Shown here: piece after piece, positions 871-20,701 of the stretch
How positions within the stretch are numbered: the stretch's first letter is position 1
How the letters are laid out: the number at the start of each line of letters is the position of its first letter
Assembly (NCBI GenBank): GCA_945905295.1
Contig: CAMDPX010000058.1
Span: 1 to 33,693 of the forward strand
Reading direction: 5' to 3'
From: Planctomyces sp. SH-PL62
Lineage (GTDB): Bacteria > Planctomycetota > Planctomycetia > Planctomycetales > Planctomycetaceae
Length of the DNA: 33,693 nt
Translations under genes and position numbers: made by a program
The notes under the pieces: model-generated
The model's input: the letters and a program-made list of their open reading frames with translations, nothing else
The model's database searches: none
What the model was told of the DNA's origin: nothing

Positions 871-2166
871 TCACTTCCACGTTTGCAGTTCGGCCGCCAT
901 CACACGCAGGCGGGTCAGCAAACTCTCGCGATGGTTTTCGCAGATCGCTCCCAGCGTGATGACCGCCGCGCCAATGCCGAGACCGGCCAGCCACAGCAGA
1001 TTCGGATGGTCGATGCTGCCGCGAATCACCATCGCGAACAGGTCGGCAATCAGAAACGCCGTTCCGGAATAGACGAGCACTCGCAGTCGCAGGCCAATCG
1101 CCAGTAACGCGATCAACACCGAGCAGACCATCAGCGAAATCAGGTGCAGCCAACTGCCGCTGACGATGTGAAACGTCGGCGAGACGAGGATCGTCAACGC
1201 GGCCGCGTATCGCAGCGGGTCGCGATAGCGTTCGGGGATTTCACGCTTGAGCAATTCGACCAAGCCCAGAATCGTCAGTCCGGCGGGGATCATGAAGAAC
1301 TGTGGATCGGACCAATGCAGCTCGCGCCACAGCAGAGCCGACGCGACGTTGAGAATGATGGCCGACACGATGAAGCGGTCACGGCGAATCGCGATAAGGG
1401 GTCGGGAGTCTTTTTCCGAGCGGTTGTCGTCGGGGCCATCAGCAAAGGATTGATCGGAGCCGCTCGGAAAAAGACTCCCGACCCCGTCGATCCCTTGCCA
1501 GAAGTAAAACGCCGAAGACAGCAGCAGTCCGAGGCTGTGCATCCCCACGACATCTGATTCGCCGTGCGTCACATGCCGAGCGACTCCGATCACGGCCGCG
1601 GCCAGCGGCAACAGGTTGGCCGGAACGTCCAACGCTTCGGCAGCGAATCGTGTTTGCGGGAAGCGAGCACAGACTCGCGACACAACGGTCCAAGCGACGG
1701 CCGCACCAAGGCAACCAAACATTGCCCAGCCGTGGCCGATCTCAATAACTCCCGCCAACAGCAGCCATGCGAACGCCGCACCGATCAATCCTTGAGCCAT
1801 CCAGACTCGATCGGTTCTCTGCTGTCGAACGGCCAGTATGAACTCGGCGATTGCCAAGAGTGTGAATGTCGCGATGGCCGACGCGACTTGTCCGATCGTC
1901 AAAGCCGCCGACGGAACAAGCAGTCCCGCGATCAGAGAGGTCGCGAGTGCCGCGTTTCCCACGAAGCAATGAATGCCGAGCAACTCGTGTCCGACTTCGT
2001 CACGAGGTCGCAGCCGAATAACGCTCAGTCCAGCCGCCAGCGTCAGCGCGACAGGCAACGCGGCCATTGTCATTGCGGCACTCAGAACATCGTTGAGGCC
2101 GATCAGTTCGGGAGCCAAACATTTCACGACGAAGGCCGTCACCTGCCAATGCCCGATCGCGATCAC
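871..2166 (-). CDS. C-terminal part of a giant polytopic membrane protein (interrupted gene)
   Basis: This frame encodes about 431 residues dominated by hydrophobic segments of membrane-helix length. I do not recognise a named family. It is in exactly the same frame as the 817-residue frame upstream (2188-4641), separated only by one TAA (2188-2190) and seven sense codons. The nominal start is a GTG at 2166 with no ribosome site upstream, and hydrophobicity continues smoothly across the stop. The simplest reading is therefore the C-terminal third of one roughly 1256-codon gene broken by a nonsense change, not an independent gene. A hydrophilic loop in its middle is encoded by a perfect palindrome at 1398-1485. 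It could still be translated by reinitiation or readthrough. Confidence 0.6.
   Translation of the reverse strand: MIAIGHWQVTAFVVKCLAPELIGLNDVLSAAMTMAALPVALTLAAGLSVIRLRPRDEVGHELLGIHCFVGNAALATSLIAGLLVPSAALTIGQVASAIATFTLLAIAEFILAVRQQRTDRVWMAQGLIGAAFAWLLLAGVIEIGHGWAMFGCLGAAVAWTVVSRVCARFPQTRFAAEALDVPANLLPLAAAVIGVARHVTHGESDVVGMHSLGLLLSSAFYFWQGIDGVGSLFPSGSDQSFADGPDDNRSEKDSRPLIAIRRDRFIVSAIILNVASALLWRELHWSDPQFFMIPAGLTILGLVELLKREIPERYRDPLRYAAALTILVSPTFHIVSGSWLHLISLMVCSVLIALLAIGLRLRVLVYSGTAFLIADLFAMVIRGSIDHPNLLWLAGLGIGAAVITLGAICENHRESLLTRLRVMAAELQTWK
1398..1485. repeat. In-frame palindromic element inside a membrane-protein gene (26-bp arms)
   Basis: Positions 1398-1423 and 1460-1485 are perfect 26-bp reverse complements with a 36-nt loop. 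On the minus strand the element is fully open in the host frame. One arm encodes VGSLFPSG and the other RSEKDSRP, giving a hydrophilic stretch of about 30 residues between two membrane segments. It looks like a small mobile or repeat element accommodated in a loop. Confidence 0.9.
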
Positions 2167-2187
2167 CAGCCACAGCCGATCGCGGTG

Positions 2188-4641
2188 TTATCGCCGCAGC
2201 GAAGCCATCGCCAGCGCCGCCACCGCGATCATCCCGGCCAATCGCAGCGTCATCCCGAACGACAGCAACGTCAGCCCCGCCGTCAGCAGCAGCACTCCGA
2301 ACGTCACCGCATGGATCGGTGAGCGAATCATGTCCGACGGATCGTCATCGACACCGTCGCGCCGCAGCCAGGAGGTCATCAGCATTCCAACAGCAGACAG
2401 CACGCCCCATGCGACCGGAATGAATCGGATCGTCGCCGGGTCCAGCAATGCAATCGCGACGAACGAGAGCACGCTCAAGCAACCGAGCACCGACAACCCT
2501 CGCAGTTGGAACCGTCGAGCCGCATCGAATGGCCAGGCCAGCAGCAGCAACGCGGGCAACCAGATCGGCAGGACTTGTCCCGGTGGATATCCCAGGCGAG
2601 CGATCAGAAACTGCCCGTGAGCCAGCACCGTCATCAGCAACAACGCCACCGCGCCGACTCGCAGCGCGGGTCGGCCGAGAGCGCCGCTCATCAGCCGGAA
2701 CGCGCTAGCGTCCGGTTCTGATTCTCGAAAACCGGACGCTAGCGCGTTCCGGCTGACGATGACCACGGGAGATGTCACGCGGCCGGCGATCCACAGAGCC
2801 AGCGGCGCGAGCGTCCACAACAGCAACAACACATCCAGGTCTCTGTGCTGAGGCCAATTGTACGTCAGCGCGACTTTGACAATGCCGGCCAGCACGAAGC
2901 TCCAAGCCGCTTCGCCTAAGCCGCGACTCGGCCACTTCCAGGCTTGAGCCATCAACAACCCGGCCAGTGCGACACCGATGAACGTTCCGAATGATCTGGT
3001 GGACGACACCATCTCGTTGCCGAGCCAATAACCGGAGACACCCAGCGTGAAGAGAACGCTCGCGATACCGAAGATCGGCCCGGCCGCGGCTTCGTAGCCA
3101 AGCTCGCCAGAGCTTGGGAGGTCGCCACGAACCGCACCCAATCTCTGGCGAGATTGGCTACGAGAGGCAATCAGCAACACAGCAGCTCCGGCGGTCATCA
3201 GCAACTGATGCGTTTCCGTTGTGATCGGCAAGCCACACACCGAATTCAGGAAGATGCGAGCACTCACACACAAAGTGATCCATGCCGCTGCGGAACCAAC
3301 CAACAGCCGACGATTGCCAAACAGCTTCGCTTGCAACAAGAACGTCGCGGTCATCACCGCCGATACCGGGAAGATCGCTTTCGCATGCGTGAAACAGACC
3401 GCGAACAGCAACATCGCCACAAGCATCGCGAAGCGCCGAGCCGGCACTTCGATCAACCGATCGCCGGACCGAGATGCTCGAACCGACGCGAACGTCGCCG
3501 ACAGGATTAACGGCAACCACGTCAAACCGTAGAACGCGACCGGCAAGCGTGATTCATGAACGGCGGTCGCGGCGGAGTTGACCAACAGCTTGGCGGTTTC
3601 GCGGAAGTATGCCGGCACGGATTGATACGCGATCGCCGCAGCGATCAGCCCGGCCCAGACGAAGGCTTGATGACCGGTGCGTCGCGCGGCCATCAACATC
3701 ATCACCGCCGCCAACCCCGCTGCCGGAGCCAACGCCAACGAGAACGGAAATCCGATGGCGGACAAGCCCACTCCCACGCAGCACAACACCAAGCCGACGA
3801 ACAACGGCAACACGAGACTCCAAGGGAGCGGCCGAACGAGATCGCCGGTCCGTTGCTGAAAGACCTTCGCCACCGCATCGGTCGTGAAGAGCACGGGCAC
3901 GGCGGTCAACACGCAACCCAGTCCGATCCACGGCAGAGCCATCTGTTCCCAACAGGAAAACGCGAACAACGTCAAGAACTGAGTCCCCAAGACTGTGATC
4001 GGCAAGAAGCCGCAGACACGCGGCAGCCGATGCTCTTCCGCCAGCCAGAAGACTTGTCGCGCGGTCTTCACCGTGCCAACCGCGAAGATCGCCCACAACA
4101 CCAACGCGACCATCGGCGTGATGGCGGCGGACAACGGCGACAACACGCCTCCGGCCACGGCCAGCGCCACGTAACTCGCGACCAATGTCGGCTGAGAGCC
4201 TCGCAGGAACTGCGAGAAGATCCTCCGCGACGCAAACGCGGTCAGCACCGCATCGAGCAACAGCAAGCCGATCTGCTCACCCCGAACCAACCACCCGACC
4301 GATTCCGCAGCACTGTCAGCCAACCCGATCCGATGAATCGCCAAGAAGCTCAGCGGCAACAACAGCAACGTCAGCGTCCGCATCACCGTACCGGTGTTAC
4401 GCAGTCCCAGCCGGTCGTAACACAACTCTCCGCAACCAAACACCGCCGCCGAGTAACCGATCACGGCCAGTGCTTTCCACAGCGGTGCCCACTGGTCCCA
4501 CTGCTTCGTCACCAGCATCAGCGACGAGCCAAAGACGATCATCACCCCCAGCGCCAGCATCCATTTGATATTTCGTTCCTGAAAGAAGCTCTCCAGAAAC
4601 CATTCGGCAGGCGATCGTCGTTTCACTTCGCTCGACATCAT
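2188..4641 (-). CDS. Giant polytopic membrane protein, N-terminal part
   Basis: An 817-residue product, mostly hydrophobic helices separated by short charged loops (well over fifteen candidate membrane segments by eye). The N-terminus is short, cytoplasmic-looking and charged (SSEVKRRSPAEWFLESFFQERN), followed at once by a membrane helix. The start has tandem ATG codons at 4641 and 4638 behind an AAGGA site. No catalytic motif was recognised. The composition resembles large uncharacterised bacterial membrane proteins of the DUF2157/DUF2339 kind, but I cannot assign it. Translation ends at TAA 2188-2190, and the same frame continues as the 871-2166 ORF, so the intact protein was probably about 1256 residues. 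Two palindromes, at 2691-2756 and 3092-3163, are embedded in frame and encode hydrophilic loops. Confidence 0.75.
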   Translation of the reverse strand: MMSSEVKRRSPAEWFLESFFQERNIKWMLALGVMIVFGSSLMLVTKQWDQWAPLWKALAVIGYSAAVFGCGELCYDRLGLRNTGTVMRTLTLLLLPLSFLAIHRIGLADSAAESVGWLVRGEQIGLLLLDAVLTAFASRRIFSQFLRGSQPTLVASYVALAVAGGVLSPLSAAITPMVALVLWAIFAVGTVKTARQVFWLAEEHRLPRVCGFLPITVLGTQFLTLFAFSCWEQMALPWIGLGCVLTAVPVLFTTDAVAKVFQQRTGDLVRPLPWSLVLPLFVGLVLCCVGVGLSAIGFPFSLALAPAAGLAAVMMLMAARRTGHQAFVWAGLIAAAIAYQSVPAYFRETAKLLVNSAATAVHESRLPVAFYGLTWLPLILSATFASVRASRSGDRLIEVPARRFAMLVAMLLFAVCFTHAKAIFPVSAVMTATFLLQAKLFGNRRLLVGSAAAWITLCVSARIFLNSVCGLPITTETHQLLMTAGAAVLLIASRSQSRQRLGAVRGDLPSSGELGYEAAAGPIFGIASVLFTLGVSGYWLGNEMVSSTRSFGTFIGVALAGLLMAQAWKWPSRGLGEAAWSFVLAGIVKVALTYNWPQHRDLDVLLLLWTLAPLALWIAGRVTSPVVIVSRNALASGFRESEPDASAFRLMSGALGRPALRVGAVALLLMTVLAHGQFLIARLGYPPGQVLPIWLPALLLLAWPFDAARRFQLRGLSVLGCLSVLSFVAIALLDPATIRFIPVAWGVLSAVGMLMTSWLRRDGVDDDPSDMIRSPIHAVTFGVLLLTAGLTLLSFGMTLRLAGMIAVAALAMASLRR
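2691..2756. repeat. In-frame palindromic element (27-bp perfect arms)
   Basis: Positions 2691-2717 and 2730-2756 are perfect reverse complements of 27 bp with a 12-nt loop. Total length is 66 bp, an exact 22 codons. On the minus strand it encodes roughly SRNALASGFRESEPDASAFR, a polar loop between hydrophobic segments of the membrane protein. The arms read as protein in the host frame without a stop. Confidence 0.92.
3092..3163. repeat. In-frame inverted pair of TCGTAGCC hairpins
   Basis: Positions 3092-3112 and 3143-3163 are 21-bp reverse complements with one mismatch. Total length is 72 bp, exactly 24 codons. Each side is itself a hairpin: stem CCAAGCTC/GAGCTTGG at 3098-3117 and CCAATCTC/GAGATTGG at 3138-3157, both with 4-nt loops. 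The two stems differ by a compensatory base-pair change (G-C against T-A), so pairing is kept. The element encodes a polar loop of the membrane protein in frame. A third monomer of the same type lies at 26003. Confidence 0.88.
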
Positions 4642-10575: not shown

Positions 10576-10666
10576 GCGCTTGTAGTGACCCCATTGATGG
10601 GGTCGGGGTCGGGGTCGTGTGCGAAATCGTTTTCTTCGACCCCATGAATGGGGTCACTACGAGCGC
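10576..10666. repeat. Palindromic element after ilvE (30-bp arms, 2 mismatches)
   Basis: Positions 10576-10605 and 10637-10666 are reverse complements over 30 bp with two mismatches and a 31-nt loop. The core of each arm is GTAGTGACCCCATT plus ATGGGGTC, so each arm also folds by itself (GACCCCAT/ATGGGGTC). It starts one base after the ilvE stop codon and lies about 170 bp before the next gene. No T-run follows. Confidence 0.88.
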
Positions 10667-10833
10667 GGCGACCGGCAGAATTTTCCGATTGGCGGACGGA
10701 CCTCCGCAGGAAGTCTTCGCGAACGCCTCGAACGGTGAGAAATGCCGTTCCCCACTTCTTTTCTTGGGCACTAAAAGCCCGCCCGCGTCAACACAGGCGC
10801 GGCGGTTGGGCCACCAAGGAAGGATTGGGTCAC

Positions 10834-13800
10834 ATGAAGTTTTCATCGTGGTTGCGTAGTTGGATGGGTTTTTCCCGAGCTCAAAATCATCGCCGAAGCC
10901 GCTCAGGCGCGGAGCATCTGCGAGCCTGCGAGATCGCGGCCGTCCATCCGCACGTCGAGCCGTTGGAGCCGCGGTTGGTGTTGGATGCCAGTACGCCGGT
11001 GAATGATCTGGCGGCGTTCGCTCAGCAGTTGAACGCTGCCGGTGCGACGCTCTACGGGGCGGCTTGGGATGTGAACACCACCGCGCAGCGGCAACTCTTT
11101 GGTGACGGAGCGCAATTTCTGCCCTTCGTCGAAGTGACGAATACCAGTCACAACCCGAATCAGATCGCGCTCACCAACAACATCACGACCTATCCAACGT
11201 GGGTGTTTGCAGACAACAGCCGGCTGGAGGGAGTGCAGTCGCTCGCGGCGCTATCCGCACAGGCCGGGATTGCCATTCCGCAAGGATTCACGCCCGGCTT
11301 CGCGCCGATTGCGACGCAGACTGTGTTGGGTGGCTCGCCGCTGATGTTGCCGATTGACGGGTTCGATCCCAACGGCGATGACCTGACCTATTCAGTGACG
11401 ATCAACAACAACACGTCGGGCCTGACGGCGACGTTGCGTCCGCGAGTGGGCGCGTTGCGGATTACGGTGGCCGGTTATGGCGACATGCTGTTCAACACGT
11501 TTGACGATCTGGTCCCGCGCGTGACGCAGCGGATTGGTCAACTTGCCAACGACAGCTTCTACAGCAACGTCATTTTTCATCGAGTCATCAACAACTTTGT
11601 GATCCAGACGGGCGATCCGACCGGAACGGGCACCGGGAGTTCGACGCTGGGGCAATTCGCCGACCAGTTCAATACCAACCTGCAATTCAATCGCACGGGC
11701 CTGCTCGCGTTGGCGAAGCAGGACGCGGACGACACCAATGACTCGCAGTTCTTCATTACCGAAGGGGCGCAGCGGTCGCTCGATTTCAATTTCTCGATCT
11801 TCGGCGTGCAGGTGGAAGGGGAGTCGGTGCGTGAGGCGATCAGCAACACCGCTACGGATGCCAATAACAAGCCGGTGATTCCCGTGACGATGCAGTCGGT
11901 CGATGTGGTGCAGGACAACGAGAATGGGGTCGTCATGCTCAGCGCACCCGTGGGCGCGAGCGGCAGCGCGGACATCACCGTGCGAGTGACTGACACCGGA
12001 GGCAACTTCTCCGAGCAGACGTTTCACGTGATCGTGCAGCCGGACACCATCAACGGCAACAACCTCAATTCCAATCCGTTCCTGGACGACATCCCGCGAA
12101 TTCGCACCACTTCGGGGCAGGCGGTCTCCTTCGCACTGAATGCGCTTGAGGCGGCGAATCCATCGAACTTTCCCATCAATTTCTACCTCAATCAAAGTCT
12201 GCTGAATGGCAACGTGGTGACCGTCACGCCGCCGTCCAGCTTCGCCGGCACGGGCACCGTTACGGTGGCGACCGGCCTCGGCAACTCGTCGGTGCTCGAC
12301 ACTCAGGTCGTCCCCATCGAAGTCGTCCGAACCGCACAGAATTTGACGCTGTCGGCCACCAACGATCCGACTCACAACGCCGCGAACGACGGAGTGGCGG
12401 ATACCTTCCTGGTGCGCGTCACCAGCGGCAATTTGCTGGAGGTGTCGATCAACGGCAGGGTGGCTCAGTTGGCGACCGGGAACAGCGTGCAGACGCTGGT
12501 CATCAACGGTTCGGACGATGCGGACACGCTGATTGTGGACTTCAGCAACGGCAATCCGATTCCTTTCAACGGACTCCAATTCAATGCCGGCGCTCAGCCG
12601 ATCGGCGGTCGCGATGTGCTGGTCCTGAAGGGTGGTTCGACGGGCAACGAACTGCACAACATCTTCAATGCCACCGATGGGACGGTCTCGATCAATGGCG
12701 CGATACTCATCGCCCACTTTGGGACCGAGTCGGTGCGTGACGAGTTGATCGTCAGCGATCGCGGGTTCCAGCTTCCCTCCAGCAACGACGTCGTGACCTT
12801 GTCGGACGATGACGCAGTCGGAAACGGCATGTCGAAGATCCTGTTCGGCACGACGAAGGACTTCGTCTTCACCAACCCGACCACCTCGCTGACGATCAAC
12901 GGTGGAGCCGGTAATGATTCGATTTCTGCGACCGGCTTGGATTCCCTGTTTCCAGCGAACGCCAAGATCTTTTTCCAAGGCGAGACCGGGAACGACACGC
13001 TCAATGCCTCTGGAGCAAATCAGCCGTTCTTTCTGTTAGGAGGAGCCGGCAACGATTCGCTGGTGGGCAACGCGAGCAACGAAACGTTCGTGGCCGACGC
13101 CGGCAACGACACGATTGTCGGCAACGGACAGAACGATGTGCTGTCGGTGGTGGGACTGACTGGCAACGCGACGCTGACCGACTCGCTGATGACTGGCCTG
13201 GGAATCGACGTGCTGACGGGCATTGAGTCGGCGTCCATCGTTGCCGGCAACACGGCGTTGACGCTCGACGCCCACGCGTTCTCCGGTTCGGTGACTCTGA
13301 CCGGCGGCAACGGCAACGATTCACTGATCGGCGGCAATAGCGCGGATGTGCTCTTTGGAGGCCAGGGAAACGACACGCTGATCGGCGGCGCGGGAAATGA
13401 TTCGCTCACCGGCGATTTGAACAATGACCTCTTGGATGGCGGCACCGGCATCGACATCGTGATTGATGTGACCAACTCCAATGTCACGGTCACGGCCACT
13501 CAGATTCAGTGGGGCAGGGCGCTGGGCACGGACACTTACCGAAATATCGAAGGCTTGCAGATCACCGGCGACGGCTCGGCGAACAAGTTTGATCTCAAAT
13601 TGTTTACCGGCAACGCGACCTTGTTCGGCAATGGTGGAGCCGACACGTTGATCGGAGGCAGCGGCAACGATCTCTTGTCGGGTGACTTGGGCAATGACTT
13701 CCTGACGGGCGGCCTGGGCGATGACACGTTGACGGGCGGCATCGGCCTGGACCGCTTGATCGAATCGGCAGACGTCAGTTGGACGTTGGCGGAATCGTTG

Positions 13801-15144
13801 ACCGGGACGTTCTTGTCGGGCCAGGGGACGGATTCCGTCAGCGACATCGAGCAGGTGTCGCTGACCGGCGGGGCCGGCGACAACGTGCTCTACGCTGCGG
13901 GCTTCAGCGGAAACGTGACGCTCGATGGCGGTAACGGAAATGACACGATCCAAGGGGGCGACGGAGCTGACTCGCTGGTGGGAGGAAACGGAAACGATTC
14001 GATCTCCGGCCGGGCTGGCAACGACAGCATCCTGGGAGGCAACGGGAGCGATACGTTGGACGGCGGTGCCGGAGACGATCGGGTCGATGGTGGAATCGGC
14101 AGCGGCGATCAAGTGACCGGTGGCCTTGGGAAAGACACGCTGCTCGGCGGAGTTGGTTCCGATGACCTTCTGGTGGAGACCGCCGACGTGGCGGAACTCA
14201 CGCTGACGTCGTCGTCGCTCACGGGACTTGGTTCGGATTCGCTGTCTGGTTTTGAGGGAGCTCAAGTCACAGGAGGCGCGGGTAATAACAAGATCGACGC
14301 CAGTAAGTTCGCGGGCTCGACCACGTTATCGGGTGGAGCGGGCGACGACTCGCTGCTCGGCGGAACAAAGAGCGGCGTCCTGAACGGCGAGGACGGCAAC
14401 GACACGCTGGTGGGTGGTGCGGGCAACGATACCGTGGACGGCGGAGTCGGCAACGACTTGGTCACCGGTACGGCGAACAACAACGTCACCGTGACCTTCG
14501 CCGCGATTCAAGGTGGCAAGGCTCTGGGCACCGACTCGTTCACGAACATCGAGACCCTCCAACTGACGGGTGGCGGTGCGGCGAACAAATTCGATGTGTC
14601 CGCCTTCGCCGGTAACACGACTCTCCTGGGCATGGCGGGCAATGACACTCTGATCGGTGGTAACGGCAACGACTCCATCGCCGGCGGTGCGGGGAACGAT
14701 TCGCTGGTCGGTGGCGACGGCGGAGATTCCCTCTCTGGTGAAGCGGGCAACGATGTCGTGAAGGGGGGCCTCGGCAACGACACACTGACGGGCAATGACG
14801 GCAAGGACACGCTCAATGGCGGAACCGGCAACGATCAGCTCGATGGCGGCCTGGGGGACGATGCCCTGTCGGGATTTACGGGGAATGACATGCTGGTCGG
14901 CGGAGCGGGCAAAGACTCGCTGGTGGGGGGAGATGGCGACGACACCCTGCGCGGCGGAGACGACAACGATTCATTGATCGGCGGACTGGGTAACGACAAC
15001 ACCGATGGGGAATTCGGCGTCGATTCCGTCACCGGCGGAACCGGCAACAACGCTTTGCCGCAAGCGGGCGATACCCTGCCGGGCAATACTTCGGAAATCA
15101 ACGACGCGCTGACGATCATTGGGACATGGATCGACGATGTGTGA
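10834..15144 (+). CDS. Giant exoprotein: LEPR motif, pseudo-thioredoxin, cyclophilin, RTX repeats (paralogue 1)
   Basis: A 1436-residue protein. The planctomycete targeting motif LEPRLVLD is at residues 44-51. Residues 55-150 resemble the thioredoxin-like domain found with VKOR-type proteins (LYGAAW, then the conserved YPTW at 120-123), but the expected CxxC is replaced by WDVNTT at 78-83. Residues 207-360 are a cyclophilin-type prolyl isomerase: FHRV at 248-251 with the catalytic Arg, GDPTGTGTG at 260-268, SQFFI at 304-308. A beta-rich region follows, then from about residue 686 a long array of GGxGNDxLxGG nonapeptides typical of calcium-binding RTX repeats. A single Cys (about residue 32) precedes the LEPR motif. 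The start at 10834 is chosen because it has AAGGAAGGA upstream and matches the paralogue's N-terminus; the frame is open from 10648. It is probably exported and calcium-stabilised, with an adhesive or matrix role inferred. Confidence 0.87.
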   Translation: MKFSSWLRSWMGFSRAQNHRRSRSGAEHLRACEIAAVHPHVEPLEPRLVLDASTPVNDLAAFAQQLNAAGATLYGAAWDVNTTAQRQLFGDGAQFLPFVEVTNTSHNPNQIALTNNITTYPTWVFADNSRLEGVQSLAALSAQAGIAIPQGFTPGFAPIATQTVLGGSPLMLPIDGFDPNGDDLTYSVTINNNTSGLTATLRPRVGALRITVAGYGDMLFNTFDDLVPRVTQRIGQLANDSFYSNVIFHRVINNFVIQTGDPTGTGTGSSTLGQFADQFNTNLQFNRTGLLALAKQDADDTNDSQFFITEGAQRSLDFNFSIFGVQVEGESVREAISNTATDANNKPVIPVTMQSVDVVQDNENGVVMLSAPVGASGSADITVRVTDTGGNFSEQTFHVIVQPDTINGNNLNSNPFLDDIPRIRTTSGQAVSFALNALEAANPSNFPINFYLNQSLLNGNVVTVTPPSSFAGTGTVTVATGLGNSSVLDTQVVPIEVVRTAQNLTLSATNDPTHNAANDGVADTFLVRVTSGNLLEVSINGRVAQLATGNSVQTLVINGSDDADTLIVDFSNGNPIPFNGLQFNAGAQPIGGRDVLVLKGGSTGNELHNIFNATDGTVSINGAILIAHFGTESVRDELIVSDRGFQLPSSNDVVTLSDDDAVGNGMSKILFGTTKDFVFTNPTTSLTINGGAGNDSISATGLDSLFPANAKIFFQGETGNDTLNASGANQPFFLLGGAGNDSLVGNASNETFVADAGNDTIVGNGQNDVLSVVGLTGNATLTDSLMTGLGIDVLTGIESASIVAGNTALTLDAHAFSGSVTLTGGNGNDSLIGGNSADVLFGGQGNDTLIGGAGNDSLTGDLNNDLLDGGTGIDIVIDVTNSNVTVTATQIQWGRALGTDTYRNIEGLQITGDGSANKFDLKLFTGNATLFGNGGADTLIGGSGNDLLSGDLGNDFLTGGLGDDTLTGGIGLDRLIESADVSWTLAESLTGTFLSGQGTDSVSDIEQVSLTGGAGDNVLYAAGFSGNVTLDGGNGNDTIQGGDGADSLVGGNGNDSISGRAGNDSILGGNGSDTLDGGAGDDRVDGGIGSGDQVTGGLGKDTLLGGVGSDDLLVETADVAELTLTSSSLTGLGSDSLSGFEGAQVTGGAGNNKIDASKFAGSTTLSGGAGDDSLLGGTKSGVLNGEDGNDTLVGGAGNDTVDGGVGNDLVTGTANNNVTVTFAAIQGGKALGTDSFTNIETLQLTGGGAANKFDVSAFAGNTTLLGMAGNDTLIGGNGNDSIAGGAGNDSLVGGDGGDSLSGEAGNDVVKGGLGNDTLTGNDGKDTLNGGTGNDQLDGGLGDDALSGFTGNDMLVGGAGKDSLVGGDGDDTLRGGDDNDSLIGGLGNDNTDGEFGVDSVTGGTGNNALPQAGDTLPGNTSEINDALTIIGTWIDDV
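12889..15050 (+). repeat. RTX-type GGxGxDxLx repeat array (paralogue 1)
   Basis: Dozens of nonapeptides of the form GGxGNDxLx, encoded by recurring GGCAACGAC-like codons. They occur in blocks separated by spacers of 35-45 residues with their own consensus: LGTDxYxNIExLQ followed by ANKFDxxxFxGNxTL. Blocks and spacers alternate regularly, which gives a higher-order repeat. RTX nonapeptides bind calcium in a parallel beta-roll. Confidence 0.9.
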
Positions 15145-15157
15145 CGCAATTCAGACA

Positions 15158-15255
15158 GGGGTCAGGCACCGCAGAATTCAGAATTGGCGGAATTGAGTGG
15201 TGAGTTGAAATCACGCTTTGCCCCGCCAATTCTGAATTCTGCGGTGCCTGACCCC
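15158..15255. repeat. Palindromic element between the two giant paralogues (33-bp perfect arms)
   Basis: Positions 15158-15190 and 15223-15255 are perfect 33-bp reverse complements with a 32-nt loop. The outer end of each arm is GGGGTCAGGCACCGC; the inner part contains GAATTC palindromes. It begins 13 bp after the stop of paralogue 1. The 17-mer GCGGTGCCTGACCCCTG from its outer end recurs at 31017-31033. The remaining gap to 15388 holds no recognisable gene; GAAGGA before 15389 is the ribosome site. Confidence 0.93.
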
Positions 15256-15388: not shown

Positions 15389-18300
15389 ATGAGACTGACA
15401 TCGTGGTTGTCCAATTGGACTCGATGGTTGGTGGCTCCGCGTCATGGCCGTAAGGCGAGTGGTCGAAATCGAAGTCGCGCCTTCCGAGTGGCGGACTTCG
15501 CCCGTGTGGCCGCGCCGCTGGAATCGCTCGAACCGCGGCTGGTGCTGGACGGCACGTTGGCCAATGACTTGGCCGCGTTCGCGAGAGTGTTGCGAGACAA
15601 CGGCGTGACGCTGTTCGGTGCCGCCTGGGATCCGACCACGACCGCCCAACGACAACTCTTTGGCGATGGGAGTCAGTTCCTGAACTTTGTCGAAGTCACC
15701 AACCCCAATCGCACGTTGAACGCGACCGCGACCGCGAACAGTATCACCACGACTTCCCCCACATGGACCTTCTCGGATGGTTCGCGGCTCACGGGCACGC
15801 AAACGCTGGAGGCTCTGGCGCTCCAGTTGTCGATCGCAGTCCCGGCTATTCCTAACGCGATTCCGCAGGGCTTCACGCCGGGCCTGGCTCCCATCGCGAC
15901 GCAGACTCTGCTGGCCGGTTCGCCGTTGCTGATCCCGTTGGATGGCTTCGATCCCAATAACGACAATCTGACGTACACGATCACTCTGACCAACAACACG
16001 GCCAACCTGACCGCCACGCAGCGGCCGCGGAATGGAGCGTTGCAAATCGCCGTTGCCGGTTACGGAAACATCCTGATCGACACGTTCGACGATCTCACCC
16101 CGCGCGTGACCGAGCACATCAAGCAGCTCGCCAATAACAACTTCTACGACGGCGTTATTTTTCATCGCGTCCTCAACAACTTCGTGATTCAAGGGGGCGA
16201 TCCGACTGGCACCGGCAGCGGCGGCTCGACCTTGGGGGACTTCGACGACCAATTCAACGTCGACTTGCAGCACAATCGCACCGGCCTGATCTCGATGGCC
16301 AAGACGACCGACGACACCAACGACTCGCAATTCTTCATCACCGAGGGACCGCAGCGGCATCTCGACTTCAATCACTCGATCTTCGGTCTCGTGGTCGAGG
16401 GAGAGTCGGTGCGCGACGCGATCAGCAACACGGCGGCCAACGGCGGCGGCGTGCCCACTTTCACCGTCACCATGCAGTCGGTGGATGTCGTCGCCGACAA
16501 CGAGAACGCCGTGCTGATGCTCAAGGTGCCCAACGGTGCCACCGGCAGCGCGAATGTGAGAGTCCGCGTCACCGATCCCAATGGGAATTTTTCTGAGCAG
16601 ACCTTCCTCGTCAACGTGCAAGCGGATACGGCGTCCTCGAATCCCTTCCTCGATGACATCCCGCTGATCCGCACGCTGCAAAACACGCCGATCTCGTTCA
16701 CAGTGCATGCCACGGACGCGGATGGTCAGCAGCCCGCCTACTTGGACCAAACATTCTTGGCGAACCGCCAACCGCCACTGCCGGTGCCCTATACCGCGAA
16801 CCCAACCAAACTGTCGTACTCGGTCAATCTGAGTACCGGCCTTACCACCGTCACACCGACCAGCACGTTTGTCGGCACCGAACAAATTACGATCGCTACG
16901 GGAGTCATCGTCTCCGCGATTGACTATCAGGTCAGCCCGATCGAAGTGGTCGCCGCCGCGACCGACCTGACGTTGTCCGCGCACAACGATCCGCGGCACG
17001 GCCAGCCCAACGACGCGATCGCCGACGCGGCCAATGACGGTCAGGCCGATGCGTTTTCTGTGCGACTCGTCCCCTACACAATCGGAGGCACGACGCGCAG
17101 CGCCATCGAAGTGTCGATCAACGGCCGAGTCGCGCAACTGGCGGAAATCGACAGTGTGCAGACACTGATCATTAACGGCTCGGACGACACCGACACGCTG
17201 ACGGTGGATTTCATCAACGGCGATCCGTTCTCGGCCGGCGGGCTGCAATTCCACGGAGGCAGTCAGGCGAACGGCGGCAAAGATCAATTGATCGTCAAGA
17301 ACTATGCCGGCCAGTTGATGAACTACTCGCTGTCCGCGGCCCACGACGGCACGCTGACGGACACCACCACCGCCGGCGGCACCCGCACGCTCGTGACCTT
17401 CACGGGCTTGGAGTCGGTCAGCGATTCGTCGACCGCCCCCAATCGCAGCGTGCAGTTCGCGGCGACGGGGGGCAGTGCAGTGCTCGCTGTCGATACGGCG
17501 GTGGCCGGGCAACTGAAGCTGGATTTCGGCCCGGATCTGAGCCTCAGTTTCAAAGCTCCAACCAACGCCATCACGGTCAACGGCGCGGAAGGGAACGACT
17601 CGCTGACGGTTGATTTCGCCAACGGAGTGCCCATTCCGGTCGGCCGGCTGCAATTCAACGGCGGCACTCAGGCCGACGGCGGCCAGGATCAGTTGCTGTT
17701 GAATAACGCCACCGCCCCGTCGATTGAGTACGCGCTGACTGGCGCTCAAGCTGGCTCGTTCGCGGCGAATGGCACCACGTTTATCAACTTCACGGGTCTC
17801 GAAGCGATCAATGACTCGTTGACGGCGGCCGCCAACAACGGAATGAACCGCACCGTGCAATACTCGTCCGACGGGCAAAGCGCGGTTCTGTCGGCCGAGT
17901 CTTCTGTCGGCAACGGCAGGCTGAAACTGCAATTCGGCACGGATCTGAGCCTCAGCCTTTCGTCGCCGATCAAAGCGCCCCCCAGCGCTGGGGCCAGTGC
18001 GCCGATCGGCTCGCTGACGGTCAGCGGCGGAGCGGGTGCCGACACGCTGACGGTCAGTTACGCCAACGGTAGCCCGATCGCGCCCGGCGGCGTGGTCTTT
18101 CATGGAGGGACTCAACCTTCCACGGGAGTCAACAATCGCGATCAACTGGTCGTCACGGGCACGACGGCGTCGACGATCCTGCACACGGTGACCAACGCGA
18201 CCGACGGAGCCATCGCCGTCAACGGAGCGGCCGTAATCACCTACGACGGCACCGAGTCCGTTGCGGACGAAGTCGTGGTCACCAATCGCGGCTTTCAGTT

Positions 18301-20701
18301 TGGTGCGAACGCCGACACGGTCGTCCTGTCGGACGATGGCATCGACGGCAACGGACAATCGAAGTTGACCTTCGGAGCCAAAGAATTCTTGTTCGCGAAT
18401 TCCACCGGCTCGCTGGTGATCAACGGTGGTAATGGAAACGACTTGCTCTCGGCTGTGGGGCTGGACGCGAGCTTCCCTTCGGACGCGAATCTGTTCCTGC
18501 AAGGCGAGCTCGGTAACGACACGATCGACACCTCGGAGGCCAGTCGCGCGTTTGTGATGGTCGGCGGCGACGGAAACGACGTGATCTCCGGCAACGGCAG
18601 CAACGAAGTGATCTCGATGGATGCCGGCAACGACATCATCAACGGCAACGGCGGCACCGATCGCATCGTCGCGTCGAACTTAAAAGGAGCGGTCACGCTC
18701 AACAACGCGCTGCTGAGCAACACAGTGCTCGGCGGCTTGGGAGCAGACATAATCAGCGGCATCGAAGAGGCTGAGCTTTCGGCGGGATTGCTCGCGGCTC
18801 AGATCAATGCCAAAGATTTTTCAGGCGTGGTGACGCTGACGGGTGGCAACGGCAATGACTCGCTCACCGGCACGGCTAACTCCGACGTGATCAACGGTGG
18901 GCTGGGCAATGACACGATCAAAGCCGGAGATGGAAACGACAGCCTGTCCGGCGGTGCGGGGAACGATTCGATCAATGGTGAAGCGGGAGACGATTTCCTC
19001 AGCGAAACCACCACCGGCAACGGCAACATCACTGTCACCGCGACTCAAATTCAGGGCGGTACGCCGCTCGGCACTGATTCGTATGCCAGCATTGCATCGA
19101 TGAGGTTCACTGGCGGCGCGCTGGCCAACAAGATCGACACGAAACTGTTCTTGGGCAACGTCACGTTGCTCGGCGGTGACGGAGCCGACACGTTGATCTC
19201 AGGAAGCGGCAACGACCGCCTGCAAGGACAGGGAGGGAACGATTTCCTCACCGGTGGAGCGGGCAATGACATCCTCGATGGCGGCAGCGGGGACGTGGAC
19301 CGTCTCATCGAGACCTTCGATACGAACTGGCTGTTGACCGATACCACGTTGACCGGGCTCGGCAGCGACACGCTGGTCTCGTTCGAGCAAGCCTCGCTGA
19401 CGGGCGGAGCTGGCAGCAATACACTCGACGCGCGGGACTACACCGGCAACGCCACGCTGGATGGCGCGGCGGGTGGTGACACGATCCTCGGCGGCACGGG
19501 AGCCAGTTCGCTTCTGGGCAACGCCGGCAACGATTTGCTCGTCGGGAACACCGGTAACGACACGCTGCTGGGGGGCAACGACACCGACACGCTGCTGGGC
19601 GGCGACGGCAACGACAGTCTCGATGGTGGCGCTGGCAACAACGATCGCGTCACTGGCGGTAACGGTCTCGACAAGCTCAACGGTGGCGCTGGAATCGGCG
19701 ACTGGCTGATTGAATCCAGCAACGCCGCGCTGATCACGCTCACCAAGACCACCTTGAGCGGCATCAGTTCAGACATCGACACGGTCACTGGGTTTGAAGG
19801 CGCGATGCTCACCGGCGGCGACGGCGATAACACGATCAATGCCGCCGAGTTCCTGGGGATGACCAATCTGACCGGCGCTGGCGGCAGCGACATCCTGCTG
19901 GCCGGGGCGGGAACCGCGACGCTCGACGGTGGAACTGGCAATGACACGCTCACGGGTGGCAAAGCAAATGATTCGTTGCTCGGAGGTGACGACAGCGACC
20001 TGATCCTCGAAAGCGGCAATGGCGGTCTCACGGCGACGATCAATGCCGCAGGAACGGTGACTCAATTCGTCGGCGGTGCCGTCTTTGGAACGGATACCTA
20101 CACCGGAATCGAAGCGGTGCGGTTGACTGGTGGAGTGGCTGCCAATCGCTTCGACCTCAAGTTGTTCGCCGGACCGGTGACGCTGGACGGTGGAGCGGGA
20201 AATGACACGCTGACCGGAACCGCGGTCAACGACTTGCTGATCGGAGGCGATGGCCTCGACTCGTTGGTCGGCAACGCTGGACTCGACACGCTGACGGGGG
20301 GCTCCGGGAACGATGTTCTCAAGGGAGGCCTCGATAACGACAACCTGTCAGGCGGCATCGGCAACGACACTCTCAACGGCGGCGATGGAAATGACACACT
20401 GGATGGCGGCGATGGCAATGATGGCCTGTCCGGTTTCCTCGGCGACGATCTGTTGATGGGCGGTCTCGGTGCCGACTCGATGGTCGGCGGTGCCGGGAAC
20501 GACACCCTGATGGGTGGCGGCGACAAGGACTCGCTGATCGGCGGCCTGGGTGCCGACAGCGTCAACGGCGAGGACGGGATCGATTCGGTCACGGGCGGAT
20601 CGGGAAACAACGCAATACCGGAAGTCGACGACGTCATCGCTGACCCGACCGAGATCAACAACGCCATGAAGATCATCGCCGCGTGGATCGACGCCGTCTG
20701 A
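15389..20701 (+). CDS. Giant exoprotein: LEPR motif, pseudo-thioredoxin, cyclophilin, RTX repeats (paralogue 2)
   Basis: A 1770-residue tandem paralogue of the 10834-15144 product, with the same order of parts. LEPRLVLD is at residues 47-54. The thioredoxin-like domain (about 58-155) has the active site replaced by WDPTTT (80-85) and keeps SPTW at 123-126. The cyclophilin domain (about 217-370) has FHRV (258-261), GDPTGTGSGG and SQFFI; LDFNHSIFG keeps the His that paralogue 1 has changed to Phe. Three copies of a beta-rich module of 130-150 residues (17155-18411) follow, against one in paralogue 1, then a long RTX array. The C-terminal tail (SVTGGSGNNAIPE ... EINNAMKIIAAWIDAV) matches that of paralogue 1. 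No cysteine was seen in the whole chain. The ATG follows GAAGGA. The export route is unknown; no type I secretion genes are nearby. Confidence 0.87.
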   Translation: MRLTSWLSNWTRWLVAPRHGRKASGRNRSRAFRVADFARVAAPLESLEPRLVLDGTLANDLAAFARVLRDNGVTLFGAAWDPTTTAQRQLFGDGSQFLNFVEVTNPNRTLNATATANSITTTSPTWTFSDGSRLTGTQTLEALALQLSIAVPAIPNAIPQGFTPGLAPIATQTLLAGSPLLIPLDGFDPNNDNLTYTITLTNNTANLTATQRPRNGALQIAVAGYGNILIDTFDDLTPRVTEHIKQLANNNFYDGVIFHRVLNNFVIQGGDPTGTGSGGSTLGDFDDQFNVDLQHNRTGLISMAKTTDDTNDSQFFITEGPQRHLDFNHSIFGLVVEGESVRDAISNTAANGGGVPTFTVTMQSVDVVADNENAVLMLKVPNGATGSANVRVRVTDPNGNFSEQTFLVNVQADTASSNPFLDDIPLIRTLQNTPISFTVHATDADGQQPAYLDQTFLANRQPPLPVPYTANPTKLSYSVNLSTGLTTVTPTSTFVGTEQITIATGVIVSAIDYQVSPIEVVAAATDLTLSAHNDPRHGQPNDAIADAANDGQADAFSVRLVPYTIGGTTRSAIEVSINGRVAQLAEIDSVQTLIINGSDDTDTLTVDFINGDPFSAGGLQFHGGSQANGGKDQLIVKNYAGQLMNYSLSAAHDGTLTDTTTAGGTRTLVTFTGLESVSDSSTAPNRSVQFAATGGSAVLAVDTAVAGQLKLDFGPDLSLSFKAPTNAITVNGAEGNDSLTVDFANGVPIPVGRLQFNGGTQADGGQDQLLLNNATAPSIEYALTGAQAGSFAANGTTFINFTGLEAINDSLTAAANNGMNRTVQYSSDGQSAVLSAESSVGNGRLKLQFGTDLSLSLSSPIKAPPSAGASAPIGSLTVSGGAGADTLTVSYANGSPIAPGGVVFHGGTQPSTGVNNRDQLVVTGTTASTILHTVTNATDGAIAVNGAAVITYDGTESVADEVVVTNRGFQFGANADTVVLSDDGIDGNGQSKLTFGAKEFLFANSTGSLVINGGNGNDLLSAVGLDASFPSDANLFLQGELGNDTIDTSEASRAFVMVGGDGNDVISGNGSNEVISMDAGNDIINGNGGTDRIVASNLKGAVTLNNALLSNTVLGGLGADIISGIEEAELSAGLLAAQINAKDFSGVVTLTGGNGNDSLTGTANSDVINGGLGNDTIKAGDGNDSLSGGAGNDSINGEAGDDFLSETTTGNGNITVTATQIQGGTPLGTDSYASIASMRFTGGALANKIDTKLFLGNVTLLGGDGADTLISGSGNDRLQGQGGNDFLTGGAGNDILDGGSGDVDRLIETFDTNWLLTDTTLTGLGSDTLVSFEQASLTGGAGSNTLDARDYTGNATLDGAAGGDTILGGTGASSLLGNAGNDLLVGNTGNDTLLGGNDTDTLLGGDGNDSLDGGAGNNDRVTGGNGLDKLNGGAGIGDWLIESSNAALITLTKTTLSGISSDIDTVTGFEGAMLTGGDGDNTINAAEFLGMTNLTGAGGSDILLAGAGTATLDGGTGNDTLTGGKANDSLLGGDDSDLILESGNGGLTATINAAGTVTQFVGGAVFGTDTYTGIEAVRLTGGVAANRFDLKLFAGPVTLDGGAGNDTLTGTAVNDLLIGGDGLDSLVGNAGLDTLTGGSGNDVLKGGLDNDNLSGGIGNDTLNGGDGNDTLDGGDGNDGLSGFLGDDLLMGGLGADSMVGGAGNDTLMGGGDKDSLIGGLGADSVNGEDGIDSVTGGSGNNAIPEVDDVIADPTEINNAMKIIAAWIDAV
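17155..18411 (+). repeat. Three tandem copies of a ~140-residue beta-rich module
   Basis: Copies begin near 17155, 17568 and 18012. Each opens with (I/V)NGxxxxDxLTVDFxNG and continues with a LQFxGGxQxxGGxDQL segment, then a FTGLExxxDS-like stretch. The period is 400-445 bp. Paralogue 1 has only one equivalent (about 12487-12888), so this block was expanded in paralogue 2 or lost in paralogue 1. Confidence 0.75.
18412..20610 (+). repeat. RTX-type GGxGxDxLx repeat array (paralogue 2)
   Basis: The same arrangement as in paralogue 1: blocks of GGxGNDxLx nonapeptides separated by spacers of the TxTQIQGGxxLGTDxY and ANKxDxKLFxGNVTL type. It ends shortly before the conserved C-terminal tail. A calcium-binding beta-roll is expected. 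Confidence 0.9.

Follow-up and report, generated by a model that had tools for sequence, protein, structure and literature searches.

The window analysed here is the whole of contig CAMDPX010000058.1 (C58; 33,693 bp) from an 8.6 Mb genome, coded G000 and called the source genome below, whose nearest named relatives are Planctomyces sp. metagenome-assembled genomes (MAGs). On its minus strand (4641 to 871) lies a gene for a large polytopic membrane protein for which profile searches gave no Pfam or NCBIfam match, and within this gene are three palindromes, E1 at 1398-1485, E2 at 2691-2756, and E3 at 3092-3163, which are the subject of this report.

Three palindromes within a membrane-protein gene

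An inverted-repeat search confirmed the positions that a first-pass annotation had given for the three palindromes. E1 (88 bp, family GGGGTCGGGAGTCTTTTTC) has 100% complementary arms of 26 nt at 1398-1423 and 1460-1485 and encodes GVGSLFPSGSDQSFADGPDDNRSEKDSRPL; E2 (66 bp, family TCAGCCGGAACGCGCTAGCGTCCGGTT, encoding VSRNALASGFRESEPDASAFRLM) has 27-nt arms, also 100% complementary, that can be extended to 2688-2759 as 30-nt arms at 97%; and E3 (72 bp, encoding SRSQSRQRLGAVRGDLPSSGELGYE) is a GTAG-tagged REP doublet (GTAGCCAAGCTCGCCAGAGCTTGG) with arms of 27 nt and 2 mismatches, where 21 nt had first been reported. The tag of E3 is GTAG followed by CCAAGCTCGCCAGAGCTTGG, and E1 (GGGGTC) and E2 (TCAGCC) are without GTAG. 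As the annotation had described, none of the three interrupts the host frame, and each encodes a polar segment between hydrophobic stretches, with mean Kyte-Doolittle values of -1.1 for E1, -0.3 for E2, and -1.1 for E3. They represent three different dispersed families and are in that sense unrelated, as had been claimed.

Overlooked in the annotation was an in-frame TAA at 2188-2190 (minus strand), which is private to the source genome and reads GAA in the congeners G010 and G002. It splits the frame, so that E2 and E3 lie within an 817-codon open reading frame (ORF) and E1 within the remaining 431 codons. The orthologues are one long frame, with 1232 codons in G010 and 743 open codons in the part recovered from G002. 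The 431 codons downstream of the TAA are still open, and the 3' end retains 92-94% DNA identity to the relatives. The stop may be a recent nonsense change, a polymorphism, or an assembly error. A predicted structure of the 817-residue part was set aside as meaningless as a fold (mean pLDDT 34); in its helix assignments E2 and E3 appear as long stretches without helix.

Occupancy of the same sites in four congeners

At the position of E1, all four congeners compared (G001, G002, G007, and G010) have a short polar loop of about 31-32 bp and no palindrome. Although the 88 bp of E1 are not a multiple of three, the element is in frame because the net gain of the source genome over each of the four is 69 bp. 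The E2 loop is empty in G002 and G010 (a net gain of 45 bp in the source genome), lacks a palindrome in G001, and in G007 holds a different palindrome, of the related GCGCTAGC family. At the E3 loop a member of the same family is found at that position in G002, a second palindrome (CGGACGCCTACGTCC) is common to G010 and G007, and G001 carries yet another (GTAGGACCGACACTCTTGCCCGTC). The first-pass annotation had predicted that orthologues would lack the three segments precisely at the palindrome borders. E1 and E2 are indeed absent or represented by another palindrome, and E3 is found in only one of the four congeners, but the borders are not always precise, because the ancestral loop sequence was often replaced and not merely extended (a gain of 69 bp for the 88 bp of E1 and of 45 bp for the 66 bp of E2). 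At none of the three sites did the orthologues have the same loop without palindromic DNA. In the downstream half of the host gene in G007 (L117), another loop carries an extra insert (GRALLPVFEESTTGKSAHPTGAVLPP), probably one more palindromic element.

Dispersed families in the source genome

The exact 19-nt arm of E1 occurs 173 times per strand in the source genome (about 173 arm pairs), about 60-80 times in G002 and G010, and 8-9 times per strand in G007. It has no match in G001 or in almost all genomes outside the genus, and a reversed-pattern control gave zero matches. E2 and E3 are present in dozens of copies each. These high-copy elements are inverted doublets of short palindromes, as REP and REPIN elements are. 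A sample of 1.23 Mb of the source genome, made up of large contigs and not random, contained 355 palindromes with arms of 16 nt or more, a density of 0.288 per kb compared with 0.0017 per kb for Markov sequence, and these fell into 91 clusters, 36 of them with at least three copies. Among the 339 palindromes classified, 59 (about one sixth) lie within coding sequence and in frame, 3 leave the frame intact but introduce a stop, 12 lie between same-strand coding stretches of different frames, and the remainder are intergenic or unclear. Since 49% of random positions fall in frame, the palindromes are about threefold rarer in coding sequence than expected, yet they are far from avoiding it. Extrapolation from this sample puts the whole genome at about 2,500 palindromes, some 400 of them in frame. 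The arms are widespread both between genes and in frame within them, the distribution that the first-pass annotation had proposed to look for.

The genes that carry elements encode MurG, Mfd, UvrA, a SecA-like protein, HypF, a heavy-metal P-type ATPase, and an SNF2-type helicase. Only one murG and one mfd score above the curated cut-off in this genome, and each contains an element. In UvrA the element (residues 161-193) falls in a break between aligned blocks, at chain residues 256 and 261 of the solved protein, and in MurG it falls in a segment largely missing from the solved homologue, ahead of the conserved LILGGSQGA motif. Insertion and survival in surface-exposed loops, as first suggested, is supported, but the phenomenon is not confined to the loops of membrane proteins.

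Frame preservation and recurrent use of loops

Comparison of 47 in-frame sites with their orthologues gave 117 site-by-species comparisons, which share genomes and are not independent: 43 were short and empty, 15 were longer without a palindrome, 5 had one-arm remnants, 28 had different palindromes, and 26 had the same family. Non-zero length differences were multiples of three in 89 of 91 cases. In the DNA of the relatives, palindromes occurred at 7.0 per kb within 30 bp of these sites as against about 0.04-0.4 per kb further out. In-frame presence in unrelated genes combined with absence from orthologues, by which Rickettsia palindromic elements (RPEs) are recognised, is thus found here as well, and the parallel with RPEs drawn in the annotation holds.

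Loss of elements is also recorded at these sites. At L183:1188, G002 and G007 retain 22 bp of the 88-bp E1, a loss of 66 bp. At L131:3914-3991, where the source genome has a full doublet, L262 (G002) and L251 (G010) retain roughly one arm, possibly a step from a single REP to a doublet or a half deletion. The idea that the centre of a palindrome is captured host DNA, hinted at by E1 (FADGPDD compared with TADDAEH), found no general support and was rejected because the elements far exceed the empty sites in length and the centres of orthologous copies are shared and drift.

Conservation of arms and drift of centres

Across 23 orthologous pairs of the same family and length, divergence was 5.3% in the arms and 27.6% in the centres, compared with 4.4% at codon positions 1 and 2 and 25.3% at four-fold sites in the flanking sequence. 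Four-fold sites inside the arms diverged by 6.9% (17/248; p=6.5e-12 against flanking four-fold sites), which places the constraint on the DNA rather than on the peptide, and the constancy of arms inside genes even at synonymous sites is a puzzle that these data expose. Without the filter on arm similarity the four-fold divergence of the arms rose to 8.8%, the added comparisons being three non-homologous ones only. The arms of E1 were more diverged in the E1-poor G007 (10/124) than in the E1-rich G002 and G010 together (10/418; p=0.006, a small sample), a hint that upkeep of the arms depends on the activity of the family. Centres are unique to each copy even where the arms are identical. Inversion of the centre between the arms was considered as a general process and rejected, having been seen in only 1 of the 23 cases (L153:2355).

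Transposase association and proposed mechanism

The source genome has 13 Y1_Tnp genes. The one at L007 has an E1 copy on each side (1356-1442 and 2158-2244), and its best NCBIfam model is REP_Tyr_transpos (REP-associated tyrosine transposase, RAYT), at 70 bits with a cut-off of 80. At L011 and L012 the Y1 genes are accompanied by the GTAGGTTGGGAC family, at L008 and L009 they lie among GGGGTC-type palindromes, and in the relatives there are Y1 genes with other families on their flanks, among them the GCGCTAGC sister family of E2 (L324).

Based on these data, we consider it very probable that E1, E2, and E3 each belong to a different family of mobile palindromes of the REP/REPIN/TIR type, short and non-autonomous, and that these families are moved in trans by Y1 HUH transposases (RAYTs) and persist in tolerant loops. 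Dozens of such families in one genome would insert at many sites; copies that break genes would be lost, and copies that leave the frame open in tolerant surface or inter-helix loops would persist and would be translated as polar linkers of some 17-40 residues. Tolerant loops would be few, with the same loop repeatedly hit and occupied by different families in different species. Old copies would be trimmed by in-frame deletions; as long as an element is present, its arms are conserved at the DNA level and its centre is free to drift. The earlier claim that small palindromes insert repeatedly in frame and add new peptide is supported by the orthologues and by the recurrence of the arms, where we infer that the peptide is translated. 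Movement by RAYTs is suggested by the flank associations together with the known biology of such families.

For E1 a putative point of entry can be described more closely. Among 34 distinct copies with exact ends, the flanks are near-invariant (A-C...T-T) in either orientation, with a weaker CGCG..../....CGCG halo, which suggests that the unit is C+88+T, or 90 bp, and that it enters an A/T-centred palindromic target resembling CGCGA/TCGCG; the genome shows no unusual abundance of the target word CGCGATCGCG. Of the 13 in-frame copies of E1, 12 lie in a single codon phase (p=0.003 when two frames are taken as open and 1.7e-5 when three are). A more speculative proposal, which we regard as doubtful though possible, is that E1 is built for translation: its commonest in-gene form would be a 90-bp unit of 30 codons, the same in either orientation, entering an A/T-centred target and offering one polar frame (GVGSLF...EKDSRPL or KKTPDP) in those 12 copies. 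On this proposal the elements in general would have their arms actively held constant within foreign genes and a centre that serves as a freely evolving linker, and would provide a clade-wide source of new protein loops.

Several points weigh against movement of these families by RAYTs into tolerant loops. No movement was observed, and there is no direct proof that the peptides of the elements are translated into protein. For E2 and E3 themselves the search turned up no cognate transposase, but only that of the GCGCTAGC sister family, and no RAYT in the relatives was found flanked by E1, E2, or E3 proper; E1 is still present in G002 and G010, whose best RAYT match is at most 59% identical. Insertions are often unclean, with ancestral loop bases replaced, and no target-site duplication is visible at the empty sites, whose loops diverge too fast to exclude one. 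Besides the shared genomes behind the site comparisons, the arm-divergence test is partly biased toward conserved arms, because arm similarity was part of how same-family pairs were recognised, and pairing in the source genome was what defined the arms.

Alternative explanations

The palindromes could be neutral debris in a decaying host gene, in which case an open frame would mean little, and the TAA at 2188-2190 fits such a gene. That stop, however, is private to the source genome, while G002 has E3 as well and an open frame; the multiples of three were counted over 47 sites, in other genes that are mostly intact; and elements are carried by the sole murG and the sole mfd. Decay has therefore been largely refuted already by frame preservation in intact single-copy genes, and we give it very little credence. 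It is equally hard to believe that the palindromes are not mobile and were formed on the spot, within loops, by template switching or fold-back replication. Such an origin would suit the near-perfect repetition of one arm by the other, the frequent replacement of ancestral loop sequence, and centres that differ between copies with identical arms. Yet the arms are those of dispersed families, whose identical copies number up to about 173 (in the sample, 36 or more families have at least three copies), copies with identical arms were observed at non-homologous sites, and the same families flank Y1 transposase genes.

The conservation of arms at four-fold sites inside genes (6.9% vs 25.3%) is what would be expected had the elements been domesticated, that is, kept in genes by selection for a role of the DNA or RNA (transcript structure, or binding of gyrase or transposase) or of the peptide. 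Orthologues of the same gene without an element, or with an unrelated one, indicate that no particular element is needed, and the greater divergence of E1 arms in G007, with its 8-9 matches per strand, points, on a small sample, to family activity and not to the host gene; we think domestication unlikely. Somewhat less unlikely, but still improbable, is that recurrence at the same loop reflects replacement by recombination or element-targeted insertion instead of independent insertions. In mfd (L164:4160-4247 compared with L226 of G002), E1 lies at the same nucleotide with identical arms (0/56) and unrelated centres (23/32 differ), which could be a re-insertion, a conversion, or recombination between dispersed copies, and at L153:2355-2450 the centre matches L273 (G002) at 60% when inverted and 27% when direct, as if the segment between the arms had flipped. 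Where the families differ, by contrast, the borders are usually several to tens of bases apart (L129:3827, L146:6869), and several sites are plainly empty in one relative and differently filled in another.

Other features of the window

Three further palindromes of the window that resemble these elements are intergenic, as the annotation had stated. One, of another family with perfect 34-nt arms, lies at 765-869 between the host gene and a pspA-like gene and has an orthologous copy in G002; a GTAG-tagged palindrome of the GTAGTGACCCCATT family lies at 10576-10666; and one of the GGGGTCAGGCACC family, a relative of which adjoins the Y1 transposase gene at L009, lies at 15158-15255. The contig itself starts inside a palindrome (1-57) of the GGCGAGCGGGG family, which has more members in the sample than any other; this start suggests that assemblies break at such elements. 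The adjacent long ORFs at 10648-15144 and 15389-20701, whose translations show peptidyl-prolyl-isomerase-like and haemolysin-type glycine-rich repeat sequence, are apparently a tandem duplication.

Relation to known elements and significance

The first-pass annotation knew of no planctomycete equivalent, but a relative has been described. Di Nocera and colleagues (PMC3733652) reported REP families in more than 80 species, including planctomycetes (R. baltica), with GTAG- or CGTC-tagged REPs and REP dimers in frame inside ORFs, where they encode 20-30 residues. Intragenic REPs were found in several species, with most in the verrucomicrobium Opitutus terrae and in R. conorii; their hosts included uvrA and other repair genes, different REPs occupied about the same recB site in two Xanthomonas species, and RPE-4 and RPE-6 were equated with CGTC REPs. 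Our elements share with these the in-frame palindromic doublets, uvrA as a host, and the occurrence of families in planctomycetes. They differ in that one genome holds several tens of families and an extrapolated 400 or so in-frame places, that the same loop is used recurrently at many genes across congeners, that empty sites, frame arithmetic, and arm and centre divergence have been measured, and that E1 and E2 are neither GTAG nor CGTC tagged.

RPEs are short palindromes in frame in unrelated genes, with peptides in tolerant segments, and vary between species (PMC10969869, PMC2996958); 44 RPE integrations are quoted for R. conorii. The elements described here resemble them in each of these respects and differ in taxon (Planctomyces, not rickettsial), in sequence (no CGTC tag was present at the ends of the elements), in the Y1 transposase genes flanked by the same families, and in their extrapolated in-frame number. 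REPIN/RAYT and TIR/TIRYT systems, described as chiefly extragenic, with TIRs starting with a GGGG motif (PMC3116915, PMC3733652), likewise consist of inverted doublets in many families per genome, with Y1 HUH genes flanked by cognate repeats, an arrangement seen here for E1 and several other families, for E2 only through a sister family, and not for E3. In contrast to those systems, about one sixth of the classified palindromes here lie in frame inside genes. The TIR terminal motif GGGGWSAS is fitted by the start of the element at 15158-15255 (GGGGTCAG); E1 starts GGGGTCGG and agrees at 7 of 8 positions. E3 is close to REP and E1 close to TIR, missing its motif by one position. PARCEL repeats are also palindromic coding sequence that adds protein segments, in their case as tandem amphipathic repeats in surface proteins (PMC2996958), whereas ours are single insertions in housekeeping and membrane proteins. 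The elements are best read as RAYT-type REP/TIR elements that act like Rickettsia palindromic elements.

The kind of element is thus already known from intragenic REPs and RPEs. In a view of the literature that was not exhaustive, what looks new is the scale, the recurrent refilling of individual loops by unrelated families in different congeners, the single-copy core-gene hosts, the frame arithmetic against empty sites, and the conservation of intragenic arms at the level of DNA. Stock inserts such as GVGSLF...EKDSRP and GHVSNVP...GHVENVPH in planctomycete proteins should be treated as element-derived in annotation and structural work. What had been a curiosity of Rickettsia becomes a measurable process in an apparently free-living freshwater planctomycete lineage, in which sister genomes provide the empty, filled, refilled, and deleted states of one loop, and their comparison can show how mobile DNA adds segments to proteins and is tolerated in single-copy core enzymes.

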